DNA of 64,000 bases from Nitrospira sp. (GTDB taxonomy: Bacteria; Nitrospirota; Nitrospiria; Nitrospirales; Nitrospiraceae): contig JACOEK010000005.1 of NCBI GenBank assembly GCA_024998595.1, forward strand, positions 186,001-250,000, given 5' to 3'. Positions 10,966 through 31,603 of the stretch are shown here, one piece after another. Within the stretch, counting starts at the first letter, position 1; the number at the start of each line of letters is the position of its first letter. The notes under the pieces are model-generated. The model had not been told where the DNA came from, did not search any database, and saw only the letters and a program-made list of their open reading frames with translations. Position numbers and translations under genes: made by a program.

Positions 10966-11493
10966 ATGGTGACTGAATCAAAGCAAGCAGGTTTCACACT
11001 GATCGAACTCATGGTCGTGGTGGTGATTGTGGGGATATTGGCCGCCCTCGCCATACCGAACTTTCTTCGATACCGGGCGCAGGCCATGCAAGCCGAGGCA
11101 CGAACGAATCTGGCAGGAATTTTTGTCGCTGAAATGTCCTTCTTCACCGAACGGAAAGAGTTCGGCAACTTCACGGATATCGGCTTCGCCGTCACTGGAA
11201 CCGGATCGAATCGCTATACGTATCGAACAGGATTAGGGCTCGGAGCCGGGCTTGGACCGAATGGAGGCAATCTGTGCGGGTCTGCCGGTAGCTGCGACAC
11301 GATTCAGACGGAAGCACCGGCCGCGGGCACGGTCAGTTTCACCGGAGGTGCGGGTATCGCCACCACGTCGTCGGCAGGTTTTACCGCCACGGCCGCTGCG
11401 GATCTCGATGGTGATTCGACGCATGATGGCTGGTACGTCAACGATTCCAAGCAAGGGTTGAGTGGCGCCGACCCGAATGATGTGTCGAGTTAG
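10966..11493 (+). CDS. Type IV pilin-like protein (PilA paralogue 1)
   Basis: 175 residues. It has a short class-III (prepilin) leader MVTESKQAG, cleavage G9/F10, then FTLIELMVVVVIVGILAALAIPNF with the conserved Glu at mature position 5. The C-terminal globular domain carries a Cys pair C104/C110 (C-x5-C), likely a disulfide loop. It ends in ...NDVSS, with a terminal serine. It is a paralogue of the pilin at 11748, sharing FLRYRAQ, the MSFFTE/TAYLSE region, NRYTYR and a Gly-Trp-x-Val-Asn-Asp motif near the end. It would be processed by PilD and assembled into a pilus or pseudopilus. No strong ribosome site is visible for the ATG; GTG 10969 is an alternative. Confidence 0.85.
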   Translation: MVTESKQAGFTLIELMVVVVIVGILAALAIPNFLRYRAQAMQAEARTNLAGIFVAEMSFFTERKEFGNFTDIGFAVTGTGSNRYTYRTGLGLGAGLGPNGGNLCGSAGSCDTIQTEAPAAGTVSFTGGAGIATTSSAGFTATAAADLDGDSTHDGWYVNDSKQGLSGADPNDVSS

Positions 11494-11646: not shown

Positions 11647-11747
11647 TATTCCCAAGATCTGTCAGGCGTGAACACGCAGTTCCGAATGAAGAGACAGGTA
11701 AGAAGAACGTGTCGGATGAAGTGGCAACAATAGGAAAGGGAGGAAGT

Positions 11748-12281
11748 ATGTTGAAGCAAATCAAGGGTCAGAAAGGTTTTACGTTGATTGAGTTGATGAT
11801 CGTCGTGGCGATCATCGGTATCTTGGCGGCCATCGCCATTCCGAACTTCTTGCGCTACCAGGCCAAGTCTCGACAGTCTGAGGCGAAGACCAACCTCGGC
11901 GCGATCTTCGTGGCAGAGACGGCCTACCTCAGCGAAAACTCGCGCTATGGCAGCTTCTCCGAAATCGGATACGCCCTCGCCGGATCGACCAATCGGTACA
12001 CCTATCGTAGCCCGGCGGTCGGTGGTAACGCGGCTTCCGGAGGCACGGCTTATCCGGCTGCCAACTATGACCAGATTCCGTGCGGTGCTCCCGCAGGTTG
12101 TACGGTTCAGACCGATGCATCTCCTGCAGTGCCGTCGAACGCAAGCACGACGGCGGGTGCGGTCGGCTTCACCGCCTCGGCGGTGGCCAGCATCGACAAT
12201 GACGCGACGATCGATGGTTGGTCGGTCAACGATATCAAGGGTGGTTTGACCCAGGCGGTTCCTGACGACGTGATCAGCTAA
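11748..12281 (+). CDS. Type IV major pilin-like protein (PilA paralogue 2)
   Basis: 177 residues from ATG 11748, preceded by AGGGAGGAAGT; the in-frame upstream GTG at 11709 has no such site. The leader is [10 protein letters not shown], cleaved G10/F11, followed by [20 protein letters not shown] with the mature Glu5. The Cys pair is C112/C118 (C-x5-C), and the protein ends ...DDVIS with a C-terminal serine. The strong ribosome site and close match to consensus suggest this is the major pilin and the copy at 10966 a minor or alternative one (inference). A strong terminator follows. Confidence 0.9.
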
Positions 12282-12382: not shown

Positions 12383-14494
12383 GTGTCCAGTTCCGGTCAG
12401 TGCTTCTCACGTCGAGTATTCAAATTCACTTTGCCAAAATTCGCTTGTCTGATAAAGCAGGAGAGAGTTGCTTGGTCACATGAGCAGGGCATTGTTGTGA
12501 ACATTCTGCATTTCCTTCCACTGCTGTTGATGTCTGTCCTCGTGATTGTCTCCCCCTTGCAGGAGGGCGGCACGACTCATCCGGCGCAAATGATCATCCG
12601 TTTGTTGATCCTCACATGGCTGGGAATCATGTTGGCGGCCGGTATTCGAGAGGGTCGCCTCGCCATCCCTGTGCTGACGATGAGGTACGCCGTGCTGGCG
12701 TTCGTCGGGCTGGCTCTGGTGGCGACGCTGTCCTCCCCGTACCCTCATCCGAGCCGGCAGTGGTTGATCATGATCGCGGGGTACGCGACCTTATTCTATT
12801 TGATTGTCTCCTTGGTGAACCGATGGGAGCATATCCGTATTCTGACTCTTGTGATCGTGCTGATGGGCGTGGGCGAAGCAGGCTGGGCCATCCTACAAGG
12901 GTTGGCATGGAATGTCGTGAGACCTGCCGGCACCTTCTTCAACCCTAATTTTCTCGCCGGATATCTCACTGTAACCTGGACGATTCTGGTGAGCGTCGCG
13001 GTCTATGGCTACCGACAGGTCTCGGCCTTTTCACGACCGTGGATGTCACCTGTCTTGTGGTGGCTTGGGCTTGCCACGGCATTGGGCACGTTGTTCTTTG
13101 CAGTGTTGTTGACCCAGTCTCGCGGGGGGATGATTGTATGTCTGGTCGGGACGGGCTTTGTGCTGACAACCCGGTACGGTTGGAAATTAGCCGGCAGCTG
13201 CGTGGCAGCCGTGGTGTTGCTCGGGCTGTTTGTGCCCACGCCGATTCGTGATCGAGTGTTAACGGAGCATCAGCAGAACCCTGTTTCCTATGCCCGTTGG
13301 CAGATGTGGCAAGGCGCGGTCGCACAGATGGTCGATCATCCGATGGGAATCGGACTGGGTCTCTATCAGTACACGTATCCCCTCTACGCATTTCCGGTTG
13401 ACGGTGAAATTGCCCGGTTTGGAAAAGTGGCTCAGACACCACACAACGACTACCTTCAGATGGGCGTCGAGATGGGGCCGGCAGCAATCCTTGTCTTTGG
13501 AATTGGGCTTGTCTTGCTCACGCGCGAACTGAGACAGGTGCTTCAATCGCGACTTCGGCGGTGGCAGCGAAGTCTCATCGTGGGCACCGGCGGTGGCGTA
13601 ATGGCGCTTCTGACGCACGCCGCGTTGGATTCGAGTTTGCGTGAGTCGGCCCTCGCGATCTTGTTGGTGCTCTGTAGTGCAATGATTGTGTCGGCTGCCC
13701 GGCTCACCCGCAGGGGGGCCGATGCGGTCTATGTCATTCCGATTCATTCACGGTGGGCATGGGGAATCGGTGCGGCCTGTCTGGTGCTGGTGGCTGGTGT
13801 GGAGGTGACTCGACTGGGTGTGGCGTGGATGAAGTTTGATGCAGCGTCCCGCCGAGCCATAGCCGGAGACACCGATGCGGCCATTGAAGGATTGAGGGCG
13901 GCGGTCTCATTGGATCCAGGCAAGGCGCTGTACCATCATGGCCTGGGGTCAGTCTATGCGAGGACCTTTGAAGGCTCCCGGGACAAGCAAGCATTCCAAC
14001 TAGCCTATGCGGAGTTTAAGCAGGCGATCGAACTAAATCCGCTCGATAGCAGACTGCTTGGTCTACTGGCGCAACTGTATCTATCGGCGGCGGGGGGCTC
14101 ACCTTCTCCCGCATCGCTCGACGACCAACAAAAAGTCTGGTTGCGTGCTGCCGTTCAAGTCTATGAACGAGCCATCCAACTCTCGCCATTCTCCGCCATG
14201 TATCGATACGAGCAGGCCCGACTCTACTGGATGCTCGGAGAGCGGAGCGACGCTGAGCGTCGAGGAAAAGAAGCCGAAAATCTGGAACCGAATTTTCTAC
14301 CTACCCGCGCGTTATTGGCCCGTTTGTGGATTGAGGCGGGACAGGTCGATCAAGCAAGGGGGCAGGTACGTGAAATTCTGGCACGGCAGGCTCGCTATAA
14401 AGGGCGAAGCATGAGTGGTCTCGATCAAGCCTTTATGAATGTCGATGTCGGCCCCCTTCTTGCCGCAGTCGGAGAAACGGCGGTCGCGGGATGA
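12383..14494 (+). CDS. O-antigen ligase/oligosaccharyltransferase-like membrane protein with C-terminal TPRs
   Basis: Up to 703 residues. The start is uncertain: GTG 12383 sits directly against its putative AGG site, while GTG 12497 (residue 39) begins just before the first membrane helix and gives 665 residues. About 10-12 hydrophobic helices cover residues 40-490. The Wzy_C/WaaL-type signatures are LLTQSRGGM and, in a periplasmic loop, TPHNDYLQMGVEMG. From about 500 the protein is soluble and TPR-like (RAIAGDTDAAIEGLRAAV, FKQAIELNPLDSRLLGLLAQLY). Family members transfer lipid-linked glycans to lipid A core or to proteins, including pilin Ser/Thr. Its place right after two pilins makes pilin glycosylation a real possibility. 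It overlaps the next gene by 4 bp. Confidence 0.8.
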   Translation: MSSSGQCFSRRVFKFTLPKFACLIKQERVAWSHEQGIVVNILHFLPLLLMSVLVIVSPLQEGGTTHPAQMIIRLLILTWLGIMLAAGIREGRLAIPVLTMRYAVLAFVGLALVATLSSPYPHPSRQWLIMIAGYATLFYLIVSLVNRWEHIRILTLVIVLMGVGEAGWAILQGLAWNVVRPAGTFFNPNFLAGYLTVTWTILVSVAVYGYRQVSAFSRPWMSPVLWWLGLATALGTLFFAVLLTQSRGGMIVCLVGTGFVLTTRYGWKLAGSCVAAVVLLGLFVPTPIRDRVLTEHQQNPVSYARWQMWQGAVAQMVDHPMGIGLGLYQYTYPLYAFPVDGEIARFGKVAQTPHNDYLQMGVEMGPAAILVFGIGLVLLTRELRQVLQSRLRRWQRSLIVGTGGGVMALLTHAALDSSLRESALAILLVLCSAMIVSAARLTRRGADAVYVIPIHSRWAWGIGAACLVLVAGVEVTRLGVAWMKFDAASRRAIAGDTDAAIEGLRAAVSLDPGKALYHHGLGSVYARTFEGSRDKQAFQLAYAEFKQAIELNPLDSRLLGLLAQLYLSAAGGSPSPASLDDQQKVWLRAAVQVYERAIQLSPFSAMYRYEQARLYWMLGERSDAERRGKEAENLEPNFLPTRALLARLWIEAGQVDQARGQVREILARQARYKGRSMSGLDQAFMNVDVGPLLAAVGETAVAG

Positions 14495-15438
14495 AGATCG
14501 TCCGATCCCGATCAAGCCTCAAGCAGGGACTTGCGCAGGTGGTCTTTGGACTGATGCTCCTTGCAGGCTCCTCGGTGCTACTCCATCTCTTGGATGGTCA
14601 ACGGACTGCGGTTGCGCGAGCCGAGCAGTTGGCCTATCTCCCGAAGGGGGAATATTTAAAATTGGCCGTGCTTGGGTATCGGCAGGTCGTGGCAGACCTG
14701 ATCTGGCTGCAGGCGGTTCAGCATATCGGTGCGAAGCGTGACACACAGCGTGGATACAGCTGGACCTATCATGCCGTGGATGTCCTGACGGACCTGGATC
14801 CCACGTTCGTTCCGCCGTACCAAGCTACCGGCCTTTTTCTCGGGGTGTTAGCCGGTCGTCAGGAAGAAGGCCTGGCAATCTTGAACAAGGGAAGTCGCCA
14901 TAATCCATTGATTTGGCAACTGCCGTTCCTGGCCGGCTACATCTCCTACTACGAGCGTTGTGATGCGGCTGCGGCGGGGGAGTATTTTCGTATGGCGGCG
15001 CAGGTCCACGGCGCTCCTGCCTACCTGCCTCAATTGGCCGCGCGCATGACGGTGGAAAGTGGAGATTCCACGGCGGCGCTCGAATTCCTGGACCGATTTT
15101 CACGCAGCGTTACGGATGAACGGCTTCGCGAGGCCTTGTTGCGACGAATGAAAGAAATCGTGCAGGAACAGGATCTTCGTTTCCTTGAGGAAAGCATCAG
15201 ACGTTACCGGGCCAGGTATGGGCAGGGGCCGGCTAAGCTTGAAGATCTGATGTTGCATGGCATCATTTCACAGCTACCGGAAGATCCGCTAGGCGGCCAA
15301 TACGAGATCGACTTTCTGCGCGGGACGGTCAGTGCGTCATCAAAGCGGGAACGGCTTCGTATTCACGAGAAAGTGGCGTGTCAGGTGGGAGCCGGACCAA
15401 AGACTTGGGCGGGGACGAGTTCAGTCGACATGCAATGA
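14491..15438 (+). CDS. Membrane-anchored TPR-like protein with pseudopilin-like C-terminal segment
   Basis: 315 residues, start overlapping the ligase stop (ATGA). A single N-terminal membrane helix lies at about 15-33. Helical repeat-like sequence covers 60-235, with conserved-looking aromatic motifs (DLIWLQAVQHIG, YQATGLFLGVLAG). The final part, about 230-285, has YRARYGQGPAKLEDLMLHG followed by LPEDPLGGQYEID. This resembles the region after the helix in GspG-type pseudopilins, where a short peptide precedes DP.G..Y. It is probably an inner-membrane, periplasm-facing partner of the ligase and the ABC-2 exporter that follow. No specific function is assigned. Confidence 0.6.
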   Translation: MKIVRSRSSLKQGLAQVVFGLMLLAGSSVLLHLLDGQRTAVARAEQLAYLPKGEYLKLAVLGYRQVVADLIWLQAVQHIGAKRDTQRGYSWTYHAVDVLTDLDPTFVPPYQATGLFLGVLAGRQEEGLAILNKGSRHNPLIWQLPFLAGYISYYERCDAAAAGEYFRMAAQVHGAPAYLPQLAARMTVESGDSTAALEFLDRFSRSVTDERLREALLRRMKEIVQEQDLRFLEESIRRYRARYGQGPAKLEDLMLHGIISQLPEDPLGGQYEIDFLRGTVSASSKRERLRIHEKVACQVGAGPKTWAGTSSVDMQ

Positions 15439-15468
15439 CCCGCAGGGCAGTGAGGATGGAGGAGTGCC

Positions 15469-16440
15469 GTGGACGACATCGTCACAGAAAATCTGACTAA
15501 ATCGTACGCATCGGGCTGGCCAGGAAGACCGCCGTTCGTCGCGCTGGATGGTCTTTCCCTGCGCGTCGGCCGCGGAGAAATATTCGGATTTCTTGGCCCG
15601 AACGGGGCTGGAAAAACCACCACCTTGAAGATTTTGTTAGGGCTTGTTCGGGCCACGAGCGGGAAAGCCTTTTTGTTGGGGCAACCGGCTGGTGATGTGG
15701 CAACGCGAGGCCGTATCGGCTTCCTGCCGGAGTCACCCTATTTTTACGACTATCTGACTGCCGAAGAGTTTCTCGGATTCTACGGGCAGTTGGCCGGGTT
15801 GGGTCGCGCGGCTATCAATCAGAGGGTGACCGATCTGCTGGAACTCGTCGGGCTGGCGGATGCACGCACCAGGCAATTGCGGAAGTTCTCCAAGGGCATG
15901 CTGCAACGGATCGGACTGGCCCAGGCGCTGATTCACGACCCTGAATTGATCATCCTTGACGAGCCGATGACCGGCTTGGATCCGATCGGGAGAAAACAGG
16001 TCCGTGATCTGATTTTAAGTCTCCGTGATCAGGGCAAGACAGTCTTCTTCAGCACGCACATTCTGCATGACGTGGAGATGATCTGTGACCGGGTCGGCAT
16101 TGTGATGAAAGGTCGGCTCGTTGCCAGCGGGCGGGTCGATGAACTGGTACGACAAGACCATACCCACTCCGTCGAAATTGTCTGTCAGCAGGTCAAGACA
16201 GACGGCAATACGCTCATCCATTCTCTCGCCGCGCGGGTGCTTCAACAGGGCCAGCAGTGCCTGATCGTATTGCCAAATCCTGATGCGGTGGACGCAATCG
16301 TGGGAGAAATTCGTCGCCAGGGCGGACGGCTGCTCTCGGTGACTCCTCATAAGGCGTCGCTGGAGGATTTGTTTTTTCAAGAGGCCTCACAAGAAATCGC
16401 GCGAGCATTGCCGCATATGACCAGTGGGAGGGCGTCCTGA
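15469..16440 (+). CDS. ABC transporter ATP-binding protein (ABC-2/CcmA-NosF type)
   Basis: 323 residues from a GTG start preceded by GGAGGAG. Walker A is GPNGAGKTT (43-51), the signature LRKFSKGMLQRIGLAQAL precedes Walker B LIILDEP, and the switch histidine is in FFSTHILHD. A C-terminal extension of about 90 residues follows the nucleotide-binding domain, as in DrrA/NosF-like exporters. The next gene encodes the cognate permease. The substrate is unknown; the position in the glycan locus suggests envelope export. Confidence 0.85.
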   Translation: MDDIVTENLTKSYASGWPGRPPFVALDGLSLRVGRGEIFGFLGPNGAGKTTTLKILLGLVRATSGKAFLLGQPAGDVATRGRIGFLPESPYFYDYLTAEEFLGFYGQLAGLGRAAINQRVTDLLELVGLADARTRQLRKFSKGMLQRIGLAQALIHDPELIILDEPMTGLDPIGRKQVRDLILSLRDQGKTVFFSTHILHDVEMICDRVGIVMKGRLVASGRVDELVRQDHTHSVEIVCQQVKTDGNTLIHSLAARVLQQGQQCLIVLPNPDAVDAIVGEIRRQGGRLLSVTPHKASLEDLFFQEASQEIARALPHMTSGRAS

Positions 16441-16441
16441 T

Positions 16442-17206
16442 ATGGATGCGATCGGCGTCATTGCCTTGAATGCGTTCCGTGAGACCCTGCGGGACAAGAT
16501 TTTGTACAACCTTGTCTTGTTCGCGGGGTTGCTGATCGGGCTGTCGGTGCTGTTGGCGGACCTTTCCATTACCGAACATCACAAAGTGATTGCCGACATG
16601 GGCCTGGCAGCGATCAACCTGATCGGTGTCATCATCGCCATTTTCGTCGGCATCAGTTTGGTCAACAAAGAAATTGAACGGCGCACGATCTACACGATCA
16701 TGGCCAGGCCGATCAGCCGAACGTTTTTTATTCTAGGGAAGTATCTCGGTCTGGCCCTGACGCTGTTCGTCAATATGACCATTATGATGGCCGTATTTCT
16801 CGCCACACTTTGGCTCTATCACGTCCCGATCGAGCAGTCGCTATTTCAAGCGGTGGAACTGATTTTTGTGGAGATTCTGGTTGTCACGGCGATCGCCCTC
16901 TTTTTTTCGACGTTTACCTCCACCACATTGAGCGCCATCTTTACGCTGGGGCTCTATGTCATTGGCCATCTGACCGCAGACTTGAGGAGCGTGGTGGCAA
17001 ATGGTGAGAGCGGAGGAGTGAAGGCCGTCGTGGATCTGTTGTATTACCTCTGTCCGAACCTGGAGATGCTGAATATCAAGGGGCAGGCCGCCGTGGGTAT
17101 TCTCGTGGCACCGGAATATCTATTGCTCGCCTCGCTGTACGGGGTGATGTACGCCGGTGTATTGCTCACTAGTGCATGCCTGGTGTTCCAAAAGCGGGAT
17201 TTCTAA
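16442..17206 (+). CDS. ABC-2 type transporter permease
   Basis: 254 residues from ATG 16442, with GGGAGGG at good spacing; an in-frame GTG at 16424 overlaps the ATPase gene. Six hydrophobic segments (about 14-40, 50-72, 98-120, 135-160, 170-190 and 230-250) fit an ABC-2/NosY-like permease. The motif VNKEIERRTIYTIMARPISR after the second helix is typical of this group. It follows the ATPase stop by 1 bp and is coupled to it. Confidence 0.8.
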   Translation: MDAIGVIALNAFRETLRDKILYNLVLFAGLLIGLSVLLADLSITEHHKVIADMGLAAINLIGVIIAIFVGISLVNKEIERRTIYTIMARPISRTFFILGKYLGLALTLFVNMTIMMAVFLATLWLYHVPIEQSLFQAVELIFVEILVVTAIALFFSTFTSTTLSAIFTLGLYVIGHLTADLRSVVANGESGGVKAVVDLLYYLCPNLEMLNIKGQAAVGILVAPEYLLLASLYGVMYAGVLLTSACLVFQKRDF

Positions 17207-17303
17207 ACCGATAGAATTCTCTGGCAGTTGGACGCACAAGCGTTCGGATCCGGCTGTTAGATTGAATGCAATCGTGCGGCCGGCGGGAACTAAGGAAAGT
17301 CTT

Positions 17304-18113
17304 ATGCAGTCACCATCTATAGCAGTCACGCACGAGACTAAACCGCGCGATGTGTATTGGGAACACCTATGGGATCTTGTAGTGATCTTGACCCAGAAGG
17401 AAATTAAAGCACGCTACAAAAACAGCGCACTGGGATATGTGTGGTCTGTTGCGAACCCTCTGCTGTTTGCGGTCATTTACTACATCGTGTTTGGGCAGAT
17501 CATGAAGGTGCCCATCGAAAATTATTCATTGTTTTTGATGGCGGCGCTCTTGCCTTGGCATTGGCTGGCCAATTCCGTCATTGCCGCACCCAATGTGTTC
17601 CTTGCAAACGCGACTCTGATTAAGAAAGTGCGCTTCCCTCGTAACGTCCTGGTCGTATCCTATGTGCTGAATGAGGGCATTCACTTCGTCTTATCAATTC
17701 CGGTCATTGCTGGTTTCCTGCTGGTGAATCACATGGCTCCTACTTTGACCTGGCTGGCCGGCGTTCCGATTCTGCTCGTGGCCCAATTCCTGATCGTGTA
17801 TGGCATTGCCATCACGTTGGCGTCTCTAAACCTCTTTTTTAGAGATTTGGAGCGACTGACAGCACTTTTTGTGACGGTGTTGTTCTTTTTAACTCCGATT
17901 ACCTATTCGAGTGCGATGGTGCCAGACTCATATCGCACACTCCTGTATGCCAACCCGGTTGCTCCGTTGATAGAGAGTTGGCGTGAACTATTTATGCACG
18001 GACAGCTGAGTTGGCTGGTGGTTGGCACCTGCTATCTCAGTGCGTTTGGCACACTTTTAGTCGGCAGCCTTGTGTATTGGCGAATGTCGTCCAAGTTTGC
18101 CGAGGTGGTATGA
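17304..18113 (+). CDS. wzm: Polysaccharide ABC exporter permease, Wzm-like
   Basis: 269 residues from ATG 17304 with AAGGAAAG just upstream; the longer frame from 17157 would overlap the previous gene without a ribosome site. Six predicted membrane helices and the family motif LTQKEIKARYKNSALGYVWS at the N-terminus identify the ABC-2 (Wzm/KpsM/TagG) group that exports O-antigen, capsule or teichoic-acid chains. IKKVRFPRNVL and FFRDLERL are further conserved stretches. It overlaps the ATPase gene by 4 bp. Confidence 0.88.
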   Translation: MQSPSIAVTHETKPRDVYWEHLWDLVVILTQKEIKARYKNSALGYVWSVANPLLFAVIYYIVFGQIMKVPIENYSLFLMAALLPWHWLANSVIAAPNVFLANATLIKKVRFPRNVLVVSYVLNEGIHFVLSIPVIAGFLLVNHMAPTLTWLAGVPILLVAQFLIVYGIAITLASLNLFFRDLERLTALFVTVLFFLTPITYSSAMVPDSYRTLLYANPVAPLIESWRELFMHGQLSWLVVGTCYLSAFGTLLVGSLVYWRMSSKFAEVV

Positions 18114-18880
18114 CCGCGATCTGTTTTGATCACGTATCGAAGTGGTACCCGAGGTACCAATCCTTATCCTATGGGATCAAATCCTCTTTGTTGCATTTGT
18201 CTGAGACGTTTCGTTCTTTGAAGCGAGAGCGAGTCAGGGTTCTGGAAGATGTGTCATTTCGAATCGAAAAGGGAGAGACGGTCGGTCTCATCGGTCCCAA
18301 TGGCGCCGGCAAGAGCACAAGCCTGGCTTTGATGGCCGGCGTCGTGGAAGCCGAGACAGGGAAAGTCGTTGTCGCCGGCCGTGTCTCCCCCTTGCTTGAA
18401 CTCGGAGCTGGTTTTCATTTTGATTTGACGGGGGCCGAAAACATTGTCCTGCACGGCGTGCTTCTTGGACTGACACGTCGAGAAGTCTCCTCAAAAATGA
18501 AGGCAATCATAGATTTCAGTGAGCTGGAGGCCTGCATCCATCAGCCGTTGCGTACGTATTCCAGCGGAATGATTGCGCGGCTCGGATTTGCTATCGCCTC
18601 CCACCTTGATCCAGAAATTCTCCTGATTGATGAGATCCTGTCGGTGGGTGACTTGGCATTTCAACTCAAATGCAATGCGAAGATCGATGAGTTTAAACGA
18701 CAGCAAGTCACCATGGTGCTTGTCTCGCACGCGATGGATCATGTGCAAAGACTGTGTGACCGAGTCATTTGGTTAGAGAAGGGGCGAATAGTGGGCGAGG
18801 GGGCACCTAGCATGATCGTGGCTGAATATGAAAAGTCGGCGCAGTTGAGACATGTTGAGAGTCGCCCCTCTGCTGCCTGA
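18110..18880 (+). CDS. wzt: Polysaccharide ABC exporter ATPase, Wzt-like (short form)
   Basis: 256 residues from ATG 18110, overlapping the permease stop. Walker A is GPNGAGKST (62-70), the signature YSSGMIARLGFAIA, Walker B ILLIDEIL, and the switch His is in LVSHAMDHV. Characteristic of Wzt/TagH is VSPLLELGAGFHFDLTGAENI after Walker A. The protein stops right after the ATPase domain and lacks the C-terminal carbohydrate-binding domain of about 150-200 residues found in E. coli O9a Wzt. The exporter therefore probably does not recognise a terminal modification through this subunit. Confidence 0.88.
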   Translation: MTAICFDHVSKWYPRYQSLSYGIKSSLLHLSETFRSLKRERVRVLEDVSFRIEKGETVGLIGPNGAGKSTSLALMAGVVEAETGKVVVAGRVSPLLELGAGFHFDLTGAENIVLHGVLLGLTRREVSSKMKAIIDFSELEACIHQPLRTYSSGMIARLGFAIASHLDPEILLIDEILSVGDLAFQLKCNAKIDEFKRQQVTMVLVSHAMDHVQRLCDRVIWLEKGRIVGEGAPSMIVAEYEKSAQLRHVESRPSAA

Positions 18881-18997
18881 ACGAGAATCTTGCCGGCGAT
18901 GACGAGGGCATGTTTACGAGGGCGGTAGAACTCCCTGTCTCTATGTGGCACGAAGGGACGTAACTTAAGCAATTGCAAAGCCGACGATAGAGGGAAA

Positions 18998-20611
18998 ATG
19001 GCTTCAATACCGCGTGTCGATCAAAACAAGACTGCCGGCGTTTCTATAGCTCGCCTCTCCCATCCGTACACCTGCGAGTACTACAAGTCCAGCCTTGGGC
19101 CTGTCCCGTATAGTCGCTATGAAGGGAAATGGCTGCAATTTTTTGGTTTGGTTGCGGATCATATCGTTAAGGAAATTAGACCTCGGAAAGTCTTGGACGC
19201 CGGGTGTGCGAAAGGGTTTCTGGTTGAGGCGCTTCGAGATCGAGGGGTTGAGGCGTACGGAATTGATCTATCCGAGTACGCGATTAGTGAAGTGCGCGGG
19301 GATATCAAACCCTATTGCCGAGTGGCTTCGTTAGTTGATCCGATTCATGAGCGGTTTGACCTTATCGTGTGCATTGAAGTCCTCGAACATATTCCGGAAG
19401 AAATCGCTCCGCGAGTCATTGCGAACCTCTGTCGAAGCACAGACGATATCCTCTTCTCCTCGACTCCCGATGACTTTGCCGAACCTACGCATGTGAATGT
19501 GCGGCCGAGGTCCTATTGGAATGCCCTATTTTCTGAGCAAGGGTTCGATTTAGACGTTGAGTTCGATGCGTCCCGTATCGCCCCGCATGCGATGCGATTT
19601 CTCAAAAGGCCTGTCCGCTGCTGTGTGATCGATGCATTGCTGAAACAGCGGGAACAGTTACGGCAGACCTTCGAGCGCACTGATGAAGAACAGCGGAAAT
19701 TGATTCAAGAGTTGGAACGCCGTTTGGAAAAAATCGAACAATCGATCGGGTGGAAGGTGGTTGTTCGTCTGAAGCATCTTCGTGAGAAAATGTGCCCTCT
19801 TCATAGCAGAAGGCATTCGATCTATTTGGCGCTGCGATCAGCGCTCCTCGCACTCATGAACGGGGAATGGCGTTCCCTTCTGAATGGTTCGCCTCAAGCC
19901 GGCCAGTCCTCAACCATCGAGTCTAATGCGGCAGCCGCAAAACCGGCGCCAATTCCAATCTCGCCAGAATCCGCCTTGGCCCACTCGCTACTTGATGGAT
20001 TGAAAGGTCTCGAGATTGGGCCGGCGACTCACAATCCGTTCGGACTGAATACTCGAAATGTTGAATTGCCTGCGGCGCATGAATTCTATGCTGAGGAACA
20101 GCGGCGCCTTTCCGGTCTTGAACCACCACGGGTCGATCTGTGGGCTGCCGCCGACAATATTCCCGTCCCAAATCAGAGTGAAGGATTTATTCTCACCAGC
20201 CATATTCTTGAACATCTGCCCAACGTTGTTGGGGCATTGCTGGAATGGGACCGCATCGTCATCGATGGCGGATATGTGTTCATGATCGTTCCTCACAAGT
20301 GGGCATTTGCTCTTGATGCGAGCCGAGAACTGACTTCCTTCGAGCATTTCATCGACGACTATGGTCAGAAAGCCTCGCTGGAGAGTCATCCGCTTGAAGG
20401 GGTTCCGGGCGGGAAAATGGGACATTATCATACATTTACACCTGACTCGGTATTACAAGTCGTTGAGTGGATGTGTCGTAACAAGCTCTGCGATTGGACG
20501 CTTGTCGCGCGTGAAGACATCGATACCAAAGTGGGAAACGGATTTACCCTGGCATTTATGGTGCGGCACCAAGACCGAGCGGGTTTCCGTGACGGAGAGG
20601 CGTTATCGTGA
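18998..20611 (+). CDS. Two-domain SAM-dependent methyltransferase with central coiled coil
   Basis: 537 residues. The N-terminal class I methyltransferase has motif I VLDAGCAKGFL (65-75), an acidic GIDLSE (88-93) and VLEHIPEE. A charged helical stretch at about 211-262 (KLIQELERRLEKIEQS) is likely coiled coil. The C-terminal domain (about 333-530) has GLEIGPATHNPF and FILTSHILEHLPNV, a second methyltransferase-like fold. The arrangement recalls WbdD-type chain-terminating methyltransferases with coiled-coil rulers, but no kinase domain is present. It follows Wzt and precedes three glycosyltransferases, so glycan methylation is the likely role. TGGCACG at 18946 lacks a correctly spaced -12 GC and is not called a promoter. 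Confidence 0.75.
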   Translation: MASIPRVDQNKTAGVSIARLSHPYTCEYYKSSLGPVPYSRYEGKWLQFFGLVADHIVKEIRPRKVLDAGCAKGFLVEALRDRGVEAYGIDLSEYAISEVRGDIKPYCRVASLVDPIHERFDLIVCIEVLEHIPEEIAPRVIANLCRSTDDILFSSTPDDFAEPTHVNVRPRSYWNALFSEQGFDLDVEFDASRIAPHAMRFLKRPVRCCVIDALLKQREQLRQTFERTDEEQRKLIQELERRLEKIEQSIGWKVVVRLKHLREKMCPLHSRRHSIYLALRSALLALMNGEWRSLLNGSPQAGQSSTIESNAAAAKPAPIPISPESALAHSLLDGLKGLEIGPATHNPFGLNTRNVELPAAHEFYAEEQRRLSGLEPPRVDLWAAADNIPVPNQSEGFILTSHILEHLPNVVGALLEWDRIVIDGGYVFMIVPHKWAFALDASRELTSFEHFIDDYGQKASLESHPLEGVPGGKMGHYHTFTPDSVLQVVEWMCRNKLCDWTLVAREDIDTKVGNGFTLAFMVRHQDRAGFRDGEALS

Positions 20612-21960
20612 GCAAGGTGCTCCTCATCAGTAATGATGTCATCGGCATGCAGATGGCTGGCCCCGGTATTCGGACCTGGGAGCTGGCAAAGCTGCTTGCG
20701 ACGGAGCACACGGTGACGTTATTAACTCCAACTCGAACCGATCTTCAACATCCGAGAATATCCACGCAGGTGTCGACGCAGGATTGCGTGCGAGCCTGTG
20801 CCGACACGCATGACGTCGTGATTGGGCAAGGACAAATACTCAGCCGATATCCATTCTTGCTGGGCCATTCGATTGTAAAGGTCGTCGATTTATACGATCC
20901 GTCGCCGGTCGGATACTTAGAGACAACTCAGCCTCATACGATCAAGGGGCAGCTGGAAAGTCACCACGCGTTGGTTCGGGAGCATTACAACTATTTACGT
21001 GCCGGTGATGTCTTCCTCTGCGCAAGCGAGAGGCAATGGGATTTTTGGACCGGCATGCTGATGGCGGCCGGAAGGATTAACCCTGTCGTCTATCAAAACG
21101 ATCGGATGCTTCGTAGCCTGTTGATAGTGGCACCTTTCGGTGTTCCTGCTCGTGCTCCTGGGCATCGGCGGCGAGTTCTAAAAGGTGTGTGGCCGGGAAT
21201 CAATCGTGATGATGTCGTCCTGTTGTGGGGCGGAGGACTCTGGGAATGGTTTGATCCTATGATGGCAGTGGAGGCGATGAGTATTGTCGGTCGCCAGCGA
21301 ACCGACATCAAGCTGTTCTTTATGGGAGTCAAGCGACCAAATGCTAGCGTGACGACCTCTCATACTGCCGATCAAACAATCGCGTTAGCCGAGCAGTTAG
21401 GCATTGCGAATCGTCTGGTGTTTTTCAACGATTGGGTGGCGTACGAGGATAGAGAAAATTTTCTACTGGAAGCCGATCTGGGATTGAATATCCATCGGGA
21501 TAACCTGGAGACTCGATTTTCGTTTCGGACACGCATGATGGATTACTTCTGGGCAGGACTGCCCATCGTTACTACAGAAGGCGATCCGCTGAGTGACCTG
21601 GTGAAACAAAACCAGCTTGGGTTGACCGTGCCTTGCGGAGATGCCGAGGCGCTAGCCCAAGCGATTCTGCGCGCAGCGGAGGACCCGGCAACCAGGCAAA
21701 CGTGGAAACTCAATTGTCTCGCGACAGCGAAAGAATTTTCTTGGGACCGCGTATTCGAACCCGTCGTCGCCTGGTGTCGTTCACCGATTCAGGCACGAGA
21801 TAAAGAATACACGGACGTATGGAATTCCTCTGTGGGAGACTCCGGGAGCTGGCCGAAGCATGCATGGGAGTATTATCTGCAACGAGCCCTTCATCATTAC
21901 CGCGTCACTGGAATGAGAGGCCTAGCGACTCGTGTCATTACCTGGTCATGTGGAAGATGA
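20608..21960 (+). CDS. Glycosyltransferase family 1/4-like (GT-B)
   Basis: 450 residues from a GTG start overlapping the methyltransferase stop by 4 bp. The N-terminal Rossmann domain has the GPGIRTWELAKLLA motif (about 15-28). The C-terminal nucleotide-sugar domain includes LWGGGLWEWFDP and FSFRTRMMDYFWAGLPIVTTEGD, which matches the E-x7-E region of GT4-like enzymes in altered form. It is probably a cytoplasmic, membrane-associated transferase in repeat-unit assembly. Donor and acceptor are unknown. It ends 254 bp before the next gene, the longest break in the glycan locus. Confidence 0.8.
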   Translation: MSKVLLISNDVIGMQMAGPGIRTWELAKLLATEHTVTLLTPTRTDLQHPRISTQVSTQDCVRACADTHDVVIGQGQILSRYPFLLGHSIVKVVDLYDPSPVGYLETTQPHTIKGQLESHHALVREHYNYLRAGDVFLCASERQWDFWTGMLMAAGRINPVVYQNDRMLRSLLIVAPFGVPARAPGHRRRVLKGVWPGINRDDVVLLWGGGLWEWFDPMMAVEAMSIVGRQRTDIKLFFMGVKRPNASVTTSHTADQTIALAEQLGIANRLVFFNDWVAYEDRENFLLEADLGLNIHRDNLETRFSFRTRMMDYFWAGLPIVTTEGDPLSDLVKQNQLGLTVPCGDAEALAQAILRAAEDPATRQTWKLNCLATAKEFSWDRVFEPVVAWCRSPIQARDKEYTDVWNSSVGDSGSWPKHAWEYYLQRALHHYRVTGMRGLATRVITWSCGR

Positions 21961-21980
21961 TCGGACGAATTCGTGAGTCG

Positions 21981-22058
21981 GGTTCACCAATGTCCTAAGG
22001 CGGGACAGCAATGCGCGTGATGTCTCCGCAATGGTGAATCACGGCTGCCGCTGTCCCG
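21981..22058 (+). ncRNA. Candidate structured RNA: interleaved inverted repeats (pseudoknot-type)
   Basis: Between two glycosyltransferase genes, GGTTCACCA (21981-21989) can pair with TGGTGAATC (22032-22040; 9 bp including one G-U). CGGGACAGC (22001-22009) can pair perfectly with GCTGTCCCG (22050-22058). The order a-b-a'-b' means the stems interleave, as in an H-type pseudoknot, with loops of 11, 22 and 9 nt. A small TGCG/CGCA stem fits inside the 22-nt loop. The element could be read on either strand. No known riboswitch class was recognised. Confidence 0.4.
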
Positions 22059-22128
22059 TTATCCAAGTAGTGGCTTCCCCCGCAGCGAGTCCTTTGCCCC
22101 GTCAGAAACATCGAAAAATCTATCCTTG

Positions 22129-22178
22129 CCGGAGAACTCCGGTAGTATTTCACTAGCCGGTTCCGTCTGCACAACCGG
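22129..22178 (+). promoter_or_regulatory. Two further hairpins in the leader of the glycosyltransferase at 22215
   Basis: CCGGA/TCCGG with a GAAC loop (22129-22142), and CCGGTT/AACCGG with a 10-nt loop (22157-22178). Both lie 37-86 bp upstream of the ATG, on the same stretch as the interleaved repeats at 21981-22058. Confidence 0.35.
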
Positions 22179-22214
22179 TGGATATTTCGAGACAACAGGG
22201 CGGAAAGACGCGCC

Positions 22215-23354
22215 ATGACGGTTACTTATTTTTCAAAAAGCTCCTCCATTGGTCCGAGTAGCCGGTACCGCGTGTTTCAATTCTTGCCGCATTTCCAAGA
22301 GGCGGGCATCGACTGCCGTGTGGAGCCGCTGTTCGGCGCAACCTATTTCTCGATTCTCCAATTGCGCTCATCCCTGCTTCAAACCTGTTTGAAAATCCCC
22401 TATGTGCTGGCCCGCTTTCTCAAACGGATTGGGACGCTCCTGACCCTGGGCCGGCGGGATCTGATCGTGATCGAAGGGCAACTCTTTCCCTATGCGCCTC
22501 CACTGATCGAACGACTGTTGCGCTGGTTGCAGTATCGTTTGGTCATCGAGATGGACGATGCGATTTACCTGACTCGCGGCCATGAACAAAAGATGCCTGT
22601 GCTGTTGGCCATGGCGACGGGAGTCATTGTTGGAAACGGTCGCTTAGCTGCGTACGCCGAACAATTTTCATCCCATGTGACGGTGGTGCCCACAGTGGTG
22701 GATACCGAACGGTTTGCGCCCAAGCCGGTCCAAGCGACGGGCGCACGCGATCGGGACAATGAGACCATCACGATCGTCTGGATCGGCTTGGCCTACAATC
22801 TCAAGTATCTGGATGTAGTGGCGCCCGCACTCCGCCGTCTGCAGGAACGGTATCGCGTGACGCTCCGGGTGGTTTGTTCTCAGCCCACGGCGCTGGCCGG
22901 TGTGAACATGGAGTTTCTTCCCTGGAAGTGGCAGCGTGAGGTGGAGGATCTCCAGGATGCCACCATCGGCGTGATGCCGCTGGCGGATACGGAGTGGGCG
23001 CGGGGCAAATGTGCGCTCAAGCTCCTGCAATATCTCGCGGTAGGGTTGCCGGCGGTGGCTTCGCCGGTCGGGGTCAACCGCGACATCCTTGTGAACGGGG
23101 AGAACGGATTTCTCGCCTCCACCGAACAAGAGTGGTATGAGCGCCTTGAATCATTGTGCCGGGACCCGCAATTGCGCGCTCGCATGGGGCAAGCAGGTCG
23201 CCGGACCGTAGAGACACGATACTCCCTGGAGGTGTGGGGACCGCGGCTGGCCGGTGTCTATCGCACATTTGCCGGGGGTGAGCCCACTCATCTGATGCAG
23301 CGGGATGTGCGCCACTCCGTTTCAAGCCACAGCCACTCGACAGGTGTGCGATGA
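22215..23354 (+). CDS. Glycosyltransferase (GT4-like)
   Basis: 379 residues. The N-terminus SIGPSSRYRVFQFLPHFQEAG is typical of GT4-like enzymes. The C-terminal domain has IVWIGLAYNLKYL, then ALKLLQYLAVGLPAVASPVGVNRDIL (the glycosyl-transfer E/G motif region) and the helix ending YSLEVWGPRLAGVY. The acceptor is unknown. It overlaps the WecA-like gene by 4 bp and starts a tightly packed run of five genes to 28058. A 254-bp structured gap precedes it. Confidence 0.82.
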   Translation: MTVTYFSKSSSIGPSSRYRVFQFLPHFQEAGIDCRVEPLFGATYFSILQLRSSLLQTCLKIPYVLARFLKRIGTLLTLGRRDLIVIEGQLFPYAPPLIERLLRWLQYRLVIEMDDAIYLTRGHEQKMPVLLAMATGVIVGNGRLAAYAEQFSSHVTVVPTVVDTERFAPKPVQATGARDRDNETITIVWIGLAYNLKYLDVVAPALRRLQERYRVTLRVVCSQPTALAGVNMEFLPWKWQREVEDLQDATIGVMPLADTEWARGKCALKLLQYLAVGLPAVASPVGVNRDILVNGENGFLASTEQEWYERLESLCRDPQLRARMGQAGRRTVETRYSLEVWGPRLAGVYRTFAGGEPTHLMQRDVRHSVSSHSHSTGVR

Positions 23355-24409
23355 TCCTCCTGGCGCTGACATTCCTGGTTGCCGTCCTGCTCTCGGTGTA
23401 TGGCGTGCCGATTGCGCGCCGTGCCGCGTTGAAGTTCGGCATTGTCGACAGCCCGGATGGCCGTCTCAAGCATCAGGGAGAGCCAGTTCCATATTTAGGC
23501 GGATTGGCGATCTACCTTTCGTTTCTCGTGAGTCTGGCGTTTACCTTCGAATTCCGGCAAGACGTGCTCGGCATCGTGCTCTCGGGGACGTTGATCGTCA
23601 TGCTGGGATTGATCGACGACTTCGGTGTGTTGTCGCCGGGCACCAAGTTGGCGGGACAGTTCCTGGCCGTGTTTGTGTTGATCAAGAGCGGCATTCGTAT
23701 CGAGATTGCGTCTCTTCCGGATTGGGTCGACATCATCCTGACGGTGTTCTGGATGATCGGCATCATCAATGCCTTCAATCTTCTGGACATCATGGATGGA
23801 TTGTCGGCCGGCGTCGGCGTGGTGAGTGCCGCGTTTCTCTGTGTGGTCGCGATTCTGAACGGTGATCAGACGATTGCCTTCATGCTGGCCGCGTTGATGG
23901 GAAGTTTGCTGGGATTCCTTCGATACAACTGGCGGCCGGCTTCCATTTATATGGGGGATTCCGGCGCCATGTTCATCGGCCTCATGCTAGGCGCCTTGTC
24001 GATGATCGGCAAATACACGCAAGGCCATTCCGTGTCGTTGCTGACGCCTGTGCTCATACTGGGCATGCCGATTTTCGACACGCTGTTTGTCATGTACATC
24101 AGGTTCCTGCGCGGCTTGCCGATATTTCTGGGCAGTCCCGATCACATCGCGATACGGTTGCGTCATTGGGGACTCTCGGTCACGCACGTCGTCTTGCTCA
24201 GTTACCTCGGTGCGGCGCTTTTGGGCGGGATCGGTTTGTTAGTCATGGCCGTCCCGCAGGATCTCGCCGTGATCCTGAGCGGCGTGACCGTGCTGGCCCT
24301 GGCCGTTGCTGCCGTGGCGCTGACTCGGGTCAATGTGTCCAGCGGAGTCGTCGCCGTGAGCCCTGAGGCAGTCCCGGCGCGTTCGACAGAAAGGACCGGC
24401 GCAGTATGA
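23351..24409 (+). CDS. Undecaprenyl-phosphate GlcNAc-1-phosphate transferase-like (WecA/MraY family)
   Basis: 352 residues with 10-11 membrane helices. Family motifs are the Asp pair LGLIDDFGVLSPGTK, the NAFNLLDIMDGLSAG loop and GDSGAMFIGLMLG, followed by a His-containing loop (LGSPDHIAIRLRHWGLS). It transfers a sugar-1-phosphate from a UDP-sugar to undecaprenyl phosphate, which would start repeat-unit or O-chain synthesis in this locus. MraY is less likely given the context of glycosyltransferases. Overlaps of 4 bp on both sides indicate coupled translation. Confidence 0.85.
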   Translation: MILLALTFLVAVLLSVYGVPIARRAALKFGIVDSPDGRLKHQGEPVPYLGGLAIYLSFLVSLAFTFEFRQDVLGIVLSGTLIVMLGLIDDFGVLSPGTKLAGQFLAVFVLIKSGIRIEIASLPDWVDIILTVFWMIGIINAFNLLDIMDGLSAGVGVVSAAFLCVVAILNGDQTIAFMLAALMGSLLGFLRYNWRPASIYMGDSGAMFIGLMLGALSMIGKYTQGHSVSLLTPVLILGMPIFDTLFVMYIRFLRGLPIFLGSPDHIAIRLRHWGLSVTHVVLLSYLGAALLGGIGLLVMAVPQDLAVILSGVTVLALAVAAVALTRVNVSSGVVAVSPEAVPARSTERTGAV

Positions 24410-25716
24410 TCATGATCGTTGGGGCAGGATTGGCGGGGCTCAGCGCGGCCTATCACTTGCGCGGGATAGCATACAAGATTCTGGAGCGGGAACGAGAGGT
24501 CGGAGGACTCTGCCGCTCGTACGTCAAAGACGGCTTCACCTTCGACTACACCGGACACCTGCTCCATTTTCGCCAGACCGCGATCAAGGCCTTGGTTGAA
24601 AGCCTGCTCCCCGATCGGTTGCAGCGGCATGCGCGCAAATCCTATGTCTTCTCTCACGACACCTATACGGAGTATCCGTTTCAGGTCAATACGTATGGAC
24701 TTCCACCGGAGGTCGTGCGCGAGTGCCTCTTGGGATTTATCGCTACGCTGTCCCGTTCCGCGTCCACGCCGCCGATCGACAGTCCGTCGTTCAAACAATG
24801 GATCCTCGACAGCCTGGGTGAAGGGATCGCCAAACATTTCATGGTGCCGTTCAACGAAAAGTTGTGGCAGGTGCCGCTTGATGAACTCACATCCGACTGG
24901 GTCTCGTGGCTCGTGCCGAAGCCCGATGTCAAAGATGTCGTCAGCGGGGCCTTGGGTATTAAGGACAAGGCATTCGGCTACAACCCGTCGTTCCAGTATC
25001 CGGTGAGCGGAGGCATCAAGGTGTTGCCGGAGGCGTTCCTGCCCTCGGTGGAGAATCTGGCCTACGATTCAGAATTGGTGGAGATCGAGACGGGGAGACG
25101 TCGCGCTGTCTTCCGAAGTGCTCAGGGGGAACGCACCGAGGAGTATGAACGTATCATCTCGACGATCCCTTTACCCGAGTTGGTACGACGGTGTGTCGAT
25201 CTTCCCGCGTCGATGCGGGAACTGGCTGAGTCGTTGCGTTGGGTCTCCGTGTATAACGTCAACCTGGCCGTCGCGCGAGAAGGCATTTCCGACAAACATT
25301 GGATTTATTTCCCGGAGCACCGGTACCCGTTCTATCGGGCCGGTTTTCCCATGAATTTCTCTCCTTCCATGGGACGACCCGGTTGCAGTTCCCTGTATGT
25401 GGAAATTTCGCATCGGCCGACGGAGAAGGAGTCGGAGACTGCGCTGATCGATCGTGTTCGTCGTGGATTGGAGTCGGCGGGTGTGCTGCAGCAGACCGAT
25501 GAGCTAGTCATGTCGGATGTGAAGGATTTGTATTATGCCTATGTGTTGTTCGACCGGTACCGTGGCCGCGCGGTGAAAGAGTTGCTGGCTGAGTTGGAAC
25601 GGCGTGGCATTTCATCAATCGGGAGATATGGATTGTGGGAACACACGTCGATGGAGGACGCGATTGCCCAGGGACAGCAGGTTGCCATGCGGTTACGAAT
25701 GAGGGCCGCGGCCTGA
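24406..25716 (+). CDS. FAD-dependent oxidoreductase, amine oxidase/UDP-galactopyranose-mutase-like
   Basis: 436 residues. The dinucleotide motif is at the very N-terminus: MIVGAGLAGLSAAYHL, followed by LEREREVGGLCRS and DYTGHLLHF. The middle has a substrate region LWQVPLDELTSDWVSW, and the C-terminus has GRYGLWEHTSMEDAIAQGQ, the second FAD-binding stretch. Proteins of this type in polysaccharide loci are annotated as protoporphyrinogen-oxidase-like or UGM-like. A role in modifying a nucleotide sugar is inferred from context only. Confidence 0.7.
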   Translation: MIMIVGAGLAGLSAAYHLRGIAYKILEREREVGGLCRSYVKDGFTFDYTGHLLHFRQTAIKALVESLLPDRLQRHARKSYVFSHDTYTEYPFQVNTYGLPPEVVRECLLGFIATLSRSASTPPIDSPSFKQWILDSLGEGIAKHFMVPFNEKLWQVPLDELTSDWVSWLVPKPDVKDVVSGALGIKDKAFGYNPSFQYPVSGGIKVLPEAFLPSVENLAYDSELVEIETGRRRAVFRSAQGERTEEYERIISTIPLPELVRRCVDLPASMRELAESLRWVSVYNVNLAVAREGISDKHWIYFPEHRYPFYRAGFPMNFSPSMGRPGCSSLYVEISHRPTEKESETALIDRVRRGLESAGVLQQTDELVMSDVKDLYYAYVLFDRYRGRAVKELLAELERRGISSIGRYGLWEHTSMEDAIAQGQQVAMRLRMRAAA

Positions 25717-25729
25717 GCGCGTCAACAGC

Positions 25730-26920
25730 ATGGATGTAATCTGTCACGTCATCACGAAACTGGAGTTGGGCGGCGCGCAGGAAGTGGCGATGCGGGTGGT
25801 CTCGAGCCTGGATCGGCGACGATTTCGTCCGGTGCTGATCGCGGGGCCCGGCGGGATGCTGACCGAGGAAGCGGCTGCGCTCGAAGGCGTCGAAGTCCGA
25901 CTGATCCCGTCGCTCCTTCGAGAGATTCGTCCCATACAAGATCTGCGCGCGCTGTGGGAATTGGTCGCCACGTTTCGACGTCTTCGGCCAAAGATTGTGC
26001 ACACCCACAGTTCAAAAGCTGGTATCCTAGGGCGGTTGGCCGCCTGGCTCGCCGGGGTTCCCTGTATCCTGCACACGATACACGGGTATGGTGTGACACC
26101 TGCCCAGCCATCGTGGCTTCAACACTTGGTTATCCAGCTCGAATGGATGGTCGGACGCGTGACCACCCATTGGATTGCGGTCTCACAGGCCGATCGCCGC
26201 CAGGGACTTGAGTGGCAGCTCTTCAGTTCCTCAAAGGTGTCAGTGGTCCGGCCTGGCATTGATCCAACGGCATTTGCGTCGCGGATCGAGCCGGCGGAAC
26301 GCGACCGTCTTCGAGCCTCGCTGGGAGTGGGGCCTGAGCAGCTGCTCGTGGGTACGGTCTCATGTTTGAAACCGCAAAAATCTCCCGAAGACTTTATTCG
26401 CGTCGCCGCGCTCGTCTGTCAGCGTATGCCTGCGGCAAAATGTGTACTGGTCGGCGACGGCGCATTGCGGCCGCAGATCGAAGCGATGATTCAGGCGCAA
26501 GGGCTTCAGGATCGAGTCACTCTGCTTGGCTGGCGTCGCGATGTGGCCTCGTTGCTGAAGGCGTTCGATGTCTTCGTCTTGACGTCTCAATGGGAAGGGT
26601 TGCCCTGCGCGATTCTGGAAGCCAGGGCCAGCCGGATTCCGATCGTGGCCACCAGGGTGGGAGGCTCCGCCGAAGCGATCATTGAGGGCATCCAGGGGAC
26701 ACTCTGTCCGGCCGGCGATGTCCGGGCCATAGCGGGTCGTGTCTGTCAGATACTTGGGGACGAGCGACTTCGGGCGGATCTCCGGAACGGGGCTCAGGAA
26801 TTGCCGGAAGAGTTTACGATTCAAGAGACGGTCAAACAGTATCAATCGCTCTATACGTATCTCCTGCACGCCACGCGTCCGGCAGAAGACGTGATGAAGC
26901 TGCAGCCCAATCGATTGTAA
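25730..26920 (+). CDS. Glycosyltransferase family 4
   Basis: 396 residues, GT-B fold. N-terminal motif: [20 protein letters not shown]. Central: [22 protein letters not shown] and [12 protein letters not shown]-terminal: [14 protein letters not shown] and [32 protein letters not shown], with the E-x7-E motif modified at the second acidic position. Expected to add a sugar to a lipid-linked intermediate on the cytoplasmic face. It lies 13 bp after the oxidoreductase and 19 bp before the aminotransferase. Confidence 0.87.
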
Positions 26921-26939
26921 AGAGGAACCGGGTAAGACG

Positions 26940-28058
26940 ATGAATATTCCGCTGCTTGATTTGAAGGCCCAGTACCAATCCATGCGCAGTGAAATTCTGG
27001 CCGCTATCGAGGCAACCTGCGATGAGCAGGGCTTCATCCTCGGGCCGCGGGTGGTGGCGCTTGAACAGGCGGTGGCGGCCTATGCGGGTACTGCGCATGC
27101 GGTGGGAGTCGCCTCCGGAAGTGACGCGTTGTTGCTAGCGCTGATGGCGTTAGGGGTCAAGGCGGGCGATGAAGTGGTCACCGTACCGTTTACCTTCTTT
27201 GCGACAGCGGGGGCGATTTCCCGGCTGGGCGCCAAACCGGTCTTCATCGATATTCGCCCGGACGATTTCAATATGGATCCGACTCTGCTCGAGCGCGCCA
27301 TTACGGCACGAACCAAGGCGATCATTCCTGTTCATCTGTTCGGCCAATGCGCGGATATGGGGGCCATACTTGAGATTGCCCGACGACACAAGATCGGCGT
27401 GATCGAAGATGCCTGCCAGGCCATCGGCGCCGCGCAAAAAGACCGACGGGCCGGGGTGCTGGGAGATCTGGCCTGCTTCAGCTTCTTCCCGTCGAAAAAT
27501 CTGGGCGGGTTTGGTGATGCCGGTATGGTAACGACGGATGACAAAGAGCTGGCGGAATCCATCGCCATGTTGCGGGTCCACGGGAGTCGTGTGCGCTACG
27601 TGCATGAAGCGATCGGCATCAATAGCCGGCTGGACGCATTGCAAGCAGCTGTTTTGCTGGTGAAATTGAAACGGCTCGATCAGTGGGCCGAAGGCCGCCG
27701 CCGCAATGCTGCGCGGTATCGCGAGTTGTTCACCGAAGCGCAATTGACCGATCAGGTCACCCTCCCGGTGACGCACCCCGACAACTTCCATGTCTTCAAT
27801 CAATTCACCCTTCGTGTCCGGAAACGCGATGAGTTGCGGGCGTATTTGAAGGATCACGGCGTGGGGAGCGAAGTCTACTATCCATTGCCGCTGCACTTGC
27901 AAAACTGTTATCGCGATCTCGGGTATCAGAAGGGTGCGTTCCCGCAATCGGAGCGTGCCGCCGAAGAAGTGTTGTCGATTCCGATTTATGCGGAGCTGAC
28001 CGATGAGCAGCTCCAATATGTCGTGCAGATGATCGCCGCTTTCTGCCGTAAACGATAA
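26940..28058 (+). CDS. DegT/DnrJ/EryC1/StrS aminotransferase (WbpE-like)
   Basis: 372 residues, a PLP enzyme that aminates keto sugars on nucleotide carriers. Motifs: [13 protein letters not shown] at the N-terminus, [24 protein letters not shown], and the PLP lysine in [16 protein letters not shown]. The C-terminal part has [10 protein letters not shown] and a [10 protein letters not shown] motif typical of this family. The N-terminal wording is closest to WbpE/WlbC-type enzymes, which make 3-amino derivatives after a Gfo/Idh dehydrogenase. A Gfo/Idh domain is encoded at 31604. Last gene of the main glycan run. Confidence 0.85.
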
Positions 28059-31430: not shown

Positions 31431-31549
31431 CGTGATGCATCCCCGCACGATCCCTGTTGTGTCAGGCCGCGCCACGTCGATTGGTCAATGGTCAGTCTGC
31501 GCTTAGGACGGGTGCCTGGCCGCCTCCCTGCACTAATTTCGAAGAAGGC

Positions 31550-31578
31550 TTCAAGAACGCGCGAGAATAGACTATAGT
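31550..31578 (+). promoter_or_regulatory. sigma-70-type promoter for the Gfo/Idh-epimerase fusion
   Basis: TTCAAG 31550-31555, 17 bp, TATAGT 31573-31578. Start near 31585 would exclude the TTG at 31583 and favour GTG 31604 as initiation codon. Confidence 0.55.
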
Positions 31579-31603
31579 AGCCTTGCACACTTGCAGACTA
31601 CTT

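Follow-up and report, generated by a model that had tools for sequence, protein, structure and literature searches.

What is the function of the longest gap in a Nitrospira glycan locus, and is it exerted as RNA or as DNA? The gap, 254 bp at positions 21961-22214, lies in a stretch of 64,000 nucleotides (hereafter the window) on contig C8 of a Nitrospira genome of 4.23 Mb, whose relatives include Candidatus Nitrospira defluvii. A preliminary description of the window had called it the longest gap in a 16-kb glycan locus, with no gene visible in it, and both points are borne out: no longer gap occurs within the gene run at 12383-28058, and only short open reading frames (ORFs), with no conserved gene, are found inside. 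The stops of these ORFs fall at varying places in the relatives compared, and a hidden gene is ruled out by the lack of any ORF common to them.

Pfam searches place glycosyltransferase genes on both sides of the gap. The genes on its 5' side encode an O-antigen-ligase-type protein, two ABC transporter pairs (one of them Wzm/Wzt-like), a methyltransferase and a glycosyltransferase (20608-21960, plus strand; Pfam Glyco_trans_1_4), the last gene of a putatively exchangeable cassette in this genome, its place being taken elsewhere by other families. Two type IV pilin-like proteins are encoded next to the O-antigen-ligase-type gene (10966-11493 and 11709-12281). On the 3' side five genes follow on the plus strand, for a glycosyltransferase (22215-23354; Pfam), a WecA-like polyprenyl-phosphate sugar-1-phosphate transferase (23351-24409; PF00953, with ECA_wecA as the best NCBIfam match, below cut-off), an amine-oxidase-fold FAD protein (24406-25716; PF01593), a second glycosyltransferase of the GT4 type (25730-26920; PF00534 and PF13439) and a DegT/DnrJ/EryC1/StrS aminotransferase (26940-28058; PF01041). 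The order of these five genes, termed the core operon here, is kept in all 20 loci examined, and 25 other Nitrospira genomes encode an orthologue of the first glycosyltransferase, at 67-83% identity.

The preliminary description had pointed to inverted repeats in the gap, two of them interleaved in pseudoknot order (21981-22058, no strand assigned), and had suggested a cis-regulatory RNA sensing a sugar nucleotide or, alternatively, a site for a dimeric regulator. Each of the four repeat pairs was confirmed in the sequence. The first, GGTTCACCA (21981-21989) with TGGTGAATC (22032-22040), forms seven consecutive Watson-Crick pairs and reaches the nine reported only if G·T is counted; the second, CGGGACAGC (22001-22009) with GCTGTCCCG (22050-22058), has nine perfect pairs, or eleven with G·U. 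They are followed by two hairpins, CCGGAG-AA-CTCCGG at 22129-22142 and CCGGTT-N10-AACCGG at 22157-22178. The chance of such a pair had been thought low, but it is not clearly beyond expectation: among 1000 dinucleotide shuffles, 9.6% contained interleaved stems of at least nine pairs (G·U allowed) and 5.0% at least one perfect 9-bp stem, and among 502 equally long stretches of the real window, 133 held such an interleaved pair.

Folding of the gap in this genome does beat shuffled sequences on both strands (z-scores of -2.73 and -2.63), as expected of a GC-rich sequence with inverted repeats, but in a comparison with seven relatives, in which this genome scored about -3, the whole-gap scores of the relatives range from -1.15 to +0.80 and none beats its shuffles, so that the strong fold is private to this genome. 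Pairing was examined in an alignment of eight species, comprising this genome and the seven that share its upstream gene and gap. The two pseudoknot helices were paired in 52% and 61% of the cells, respectively, and all measures of covariation were no better than in column shuffles. Identity to the relatives is 37-62% over 21961-22096, against 85-96% over 22104-22151. Taken together, the pairing, covariation, folding and identity data indicate that the interleaved repeats are a feature of this genome alone, and they were judged to have arisen by chance. A search of Rfam 15 gave no match at the gathering score, and a permissive search yielded only a chance-level match. A conserved pseudoknot or a sugar-nucleotide sensor built from these stems is thus extremely unlikely; it would have in its favour that the stems exist and fold well in this genome, but relatives lose the pairing. 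The preliminary description had named a lack of conservation or covariation of the stems in relatives as refuting its proposal, and on that criterion the pseudoknot is rejected. The two later hairpins were likewise rejected as RNA helices, as in 26 species no pair of either hairpin had both of its bases changed. The same applies to an alternative helix, CCGGT/GCCGG (22139-22143 with 22156-22160), picked after seeing the sequence, which is paired in 91% of cells.

The conserved part of the gap, not singled out in the preliminary description, is a block at 22106-22150 on the plus strand, with the consensus AAACAtCGAAAAAyCTATCCTTGCcnGaGAACTCCGGTACTATTT. In an alignment of the 128 bases ending at the ATG from 26 Nitrospira genomes, the block is free of gaps and contains 23 invariant columns, and no insertion or deletion occurs from -49 to +6, numbered from the expected transcription start. 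Of its 45 columns, 40 are conserved at 90% or more, compared with 20 and 28 of 45 in intergenic controls, of which there were only two (the regions upstream of 28598 and 31583, treated in the same way); nearby coding stretches reach 34-37 well-conserved columns. The region upstream of 31583 also contains a second conserved promoter-like block, AaTTTtcgAGAAggCTTCAagAAcgcgcgaGAATAGacTATAGTA (about 31530-31583), before a Gfo/Idh/MocA-epimerase fusion gene, with 28 of 45 columns conserved at 90% or more in 19 genomes. Just upstream of 28598, a short conserved stretch, GGCATaGGGATTGCTccTA, precedes a gene for a PAS/HisKA_2 histidine kinase in 13 genomes.

A pattern search found the block in 26 of the 29 Nitrospira genomes, with a single copy in each; with a sequence model, these 26 again had one strong match apiece (47-66 bits), and weaker matches did not exceed 17.2 bits. 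These are exactly the 26 genomes that have an orthologue of the downstream glycosyltransferase; the three that lack the gene also lack the block. Outside the genus, 175 genomes of the family contained only weak partial matches, none above 18.7 bits, and by eye the 54%-identical glycosyltransferase orthologues of a sister genus are not preceded by the block. A regulon search of the 29 genomes with the whole block and with each half returned off-site matches at chance level. One full-length match of 17.2 bits, GAACTGCGGTACTATTTG, corresponds to the downstream half of the block and lies in G003, a genome without the block, at about 1500-1520 of L117, about 40-50 bp before an ORF for a TPR protein. 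A replication landmark such as dif or oriC was considered and rejected, as the block always lies about 100 bp before one ATG and its chromosomal position varies among genomes assembled in one contig. A literature search found no paper on the block or on Nitrospira transcription start sites, although such an absence is weak evidence.

Since the gap contains neither a common ORF nor a covarying structure, the constraint appears to act on the DNA sequence itself. The functional feature of the gap is probably a DNA promoter of the five-gene core glycan operon, rather than an RNA, as judged from sequence comparison. The suggestion that the gap is regulatory is therefore supported, but not by way of the stems on which it was based. 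The candidate -10 hexamer on the plus strand is TAGTAT in this genome (22143-22148) and TACTAT in 24 of the 26; T-12, A-11, T-9, A-8 and T-7 are invariant in all 26. Seven nucleotides after it, at 22155, lies the predicted start of transcription, where A is found in 25 genomes and G in one, so that a purine occupies the expected +1 in every genome, as a feature of the sequence only. Positions -3 to -1, directly ahead of this near-invariant A, are variable, as are -25 and -24. The transcript would begin with a leader of 60 nt (22155-22214, plus strand), which is moderately conserved and has no supported structure.

The upstream half of the block (-49 to -26; 22106-22129, plus strand) carries about 2 bits per column nearly throughout and includes the A-tract GAAAAA together with CTATCCTTGC where a -35 hexamer would be expected. 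The place of the -35 element is taken by CTATCC, and a scan of 20500-22700 found no TTGACA/TATAAT pair. An activator-dependent subtype of promoter can lack the -35 consensus, and since this consensus is missing at the block, an activator is invoked, for which the upstream half would be the site. The spacer is more strongly conserved than a simple sigma-70 promoter needs, which, like the missing -35 consensus, counts against the reading as a promoter. It contains the palindrome CCGGAG-AA-CTCCGG, centred at about -19.5, in which 82% of cells are paired according to pair counts in 26 species; the right arm is conserved, and the left is loose, with one free position, the pair at which is kept in only 11 of the 26. 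The proposed site for a dimeric regulator thus survives in altered form only: a palindrome does lie inside the conserved block, but its left arm varies, and it is possibly a dimer contact or possibly a side effect of the spacer sequence.

A promoter of an alternative sigma factor, ECF or other, would explain a conserved -35 region and spacer that do not match the sigma-70 consensus, and would fit the layout of the block, in which the variable positions -25 and -24 separate a conserved segment at -49 to -26 from another at -23 to -4. Such a promoter seems unlikely, given that each genome has only one strong copy, that the TAnTAT hexamer fits the housekeeping type, and that the spacing of the two elements is unlike the consensus of sigma-54 (GG-N10-GC) or a typical ECF factor; on inspection of the alignment, GG-N10-GC at -24/-12 is not among the conserved positions. 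An activator-dependent promoter is the simplest account of the block, whose start site, sigma factor and regulator are all deduced here from the pattern of conservation. What sets the element apart is how strictly it is conserved and that it has one target; in kind it is ordinary. A more adventurous proposal, which we regard as doubtful, is that the block is the sole target of a novel Nitrospira-specific regulator, or belongs to an unrecognised promoter class, and in this way sets expression of the core operon independently of the cassette.

The block could also lie inside a transcript, as a riboswitch, a protein-binding leader or an antitermination signal of the RfaH/LoaP type, read as RNA or on the non-template strand of paused polymerase. 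A long conserved sequence upstream of a polysaccharide operon would suit such a role, and the core CCGGTAGTATT of this genome recalls that of ops, GGCGGTAGnnT, a resemblance taken as a lead only. A paralogue of NusG is encoded in many Nitrospira genomes, at sites unlinked to the block (G000:C2:438661-438933 and equivalents). An origin of the conservation in RNA is nevertheless quite unlikely, as there is no covariation and no Rfam match, and the leader has no unusual fold in eight species. The ops core is not found in the leader, where 24 of the 26 species have CCGGTAC, that is, CGGTAC and not CGGTAG. The paralogue lies elsewhere, and the one-contig genome G007 has the block although only a NusG of canonical type was found in it. 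In several carriers of the block the paralogue is absent from the search results, which is weak evidence, since in some genomes even canonical NusG escaped this search.

The placement of the block is consistent with the preferred reading as a promoter of the core operon. In 21 loci it is on the same strand and at -96 to -104 from the ATG, while the gap can be as short as 134 bp or as long as 436 bp and is preceded by genes of four unrelated clusters. These are a glycosyltransferase of 450 aa (7 loci) and, as named by reading of translated sequences rather than by family search, a two-domain glycosyltransferase (4), an asparagine-synthase-like protein (8) and an epimerase-like protein (2). Compared with two relatives (G018, L131, and G022, L134), DNA identity is about 90-97% over 17000-21900 (93-99% per 100 bp up to 21900), falls to 67-68% at 22000-22099 and is mostly 63-84% beyond. 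This drop inside the gap indicates that the upstream cassette was exchanged recently between Nitrospira species, and the 5' edge of the gap is a seam at which an exchangeable export cassette meets the core operon.

Three genomes, G003, G020 and G026 (L186, L187 and L188), retain the core operon from the WecA-like gene onwards at about 90% identity, but the first core glycosyltransferase and the block are replaced as a unit: the ORF ahead of the WecA-like gene, which stops 6-12 bp short of it, is a different glycosyltransferase-like one. As both are gone together, the block travels with the first core gene, which is always accompanied by it. In these three genomes the remaining core genes seem to have become part of the upstream operon and to be read from upstream. 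A search for terminator-like sites over 20500-22700 of the window found none, so that where the block is present, the core operon may also be transcribed by read-through from upstream.

The coincidence of block and seam raises the question of whether the block is kept as a homologous anchor for cassette exchange, like the shared flanks at O-antigen loci. The seam between exchanged and vertically inherited DNA does lie within the gap, and in 26 genomes no conserved sequence comes between it and the block. This is very unlikely to be the reason for its conservation, as homologous recombination does not require 45 bp to be kept base by base, complete with a -10-like hexamer and a constant spacing to one ATG. 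In G003, G020 and G026 the boundary of exchange is found one gene further downstream, and no block of this kind marks it.

If the block is a promoter, RNA polymerase with a housekeeping-type sigma factor would use TACTAT (22143-22148) as the -10 element and start at A22155, while an activator would contact the invariant stretch AAACAtCGAAAAAyCTATCC and possibly make a second contact in the conserved spacer. Having its own promoter would let the core operon (glycosyltransferase, WecA-like transferase, oxidase, glycosyltransferase and DegT aminotransferase) be expressed independently of the upstream cassette, and species could swap the variable cassette of Wzm/Wzt-type export and glycosyltransferase genes by recombination at the edge of the gap. 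A conserved core operon may in this manner hold on to its promoter through exchanges of the adjoining glycan cassette between species. Nitrospira are key nitrite oxidisers and comammox bacteria, and to our knowledge little is known of their promoters and regulators. A genus-wide, nearly invariant promoter-like block with a single target is a concrete start for the mapping of transcription starts and for finding the regulator.

Among known systems, class II activator-dependent sigma-70 promoters share with the block a -10-like hexamer with T-12, A-11 and T-7, a purine at +1, the lack of a -35 consensus and a conserved sequence overlapping the -35 region; the Nitrospira block differs in that the spacer is conserved too and that each genome has one strong copy. 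MerR-type promoters carry a symmetric operator in a spacer of 19-20 bp and resemble the block in having a palindrome between the -35 and -10 positions, here centred at about -19.5, but the Nitrospira dyad is imperfect, its left arm not being strictly conserved, and there is no TTGACA-like -35 element. The JUMPstart/ops leaders of enterobacteria, which act through RfaH, are also conserved non-coding sequences before surface-polysaccharide genes, and CGGTAG occurs in this genome; the Nitrospira block differs in its promoter-like position, in having no linked NusG paralogue and in lacking G after CGGTA in 24 of 26 species. Finally, as at the flanks of O-antigen and capsule cassettes, variable export and glycosyltransferase genes adjoin a conserved operon, with the exchange boundary between them, but in Nitrospira this boundary coincides with a promoter-like block internal to the conserved part.
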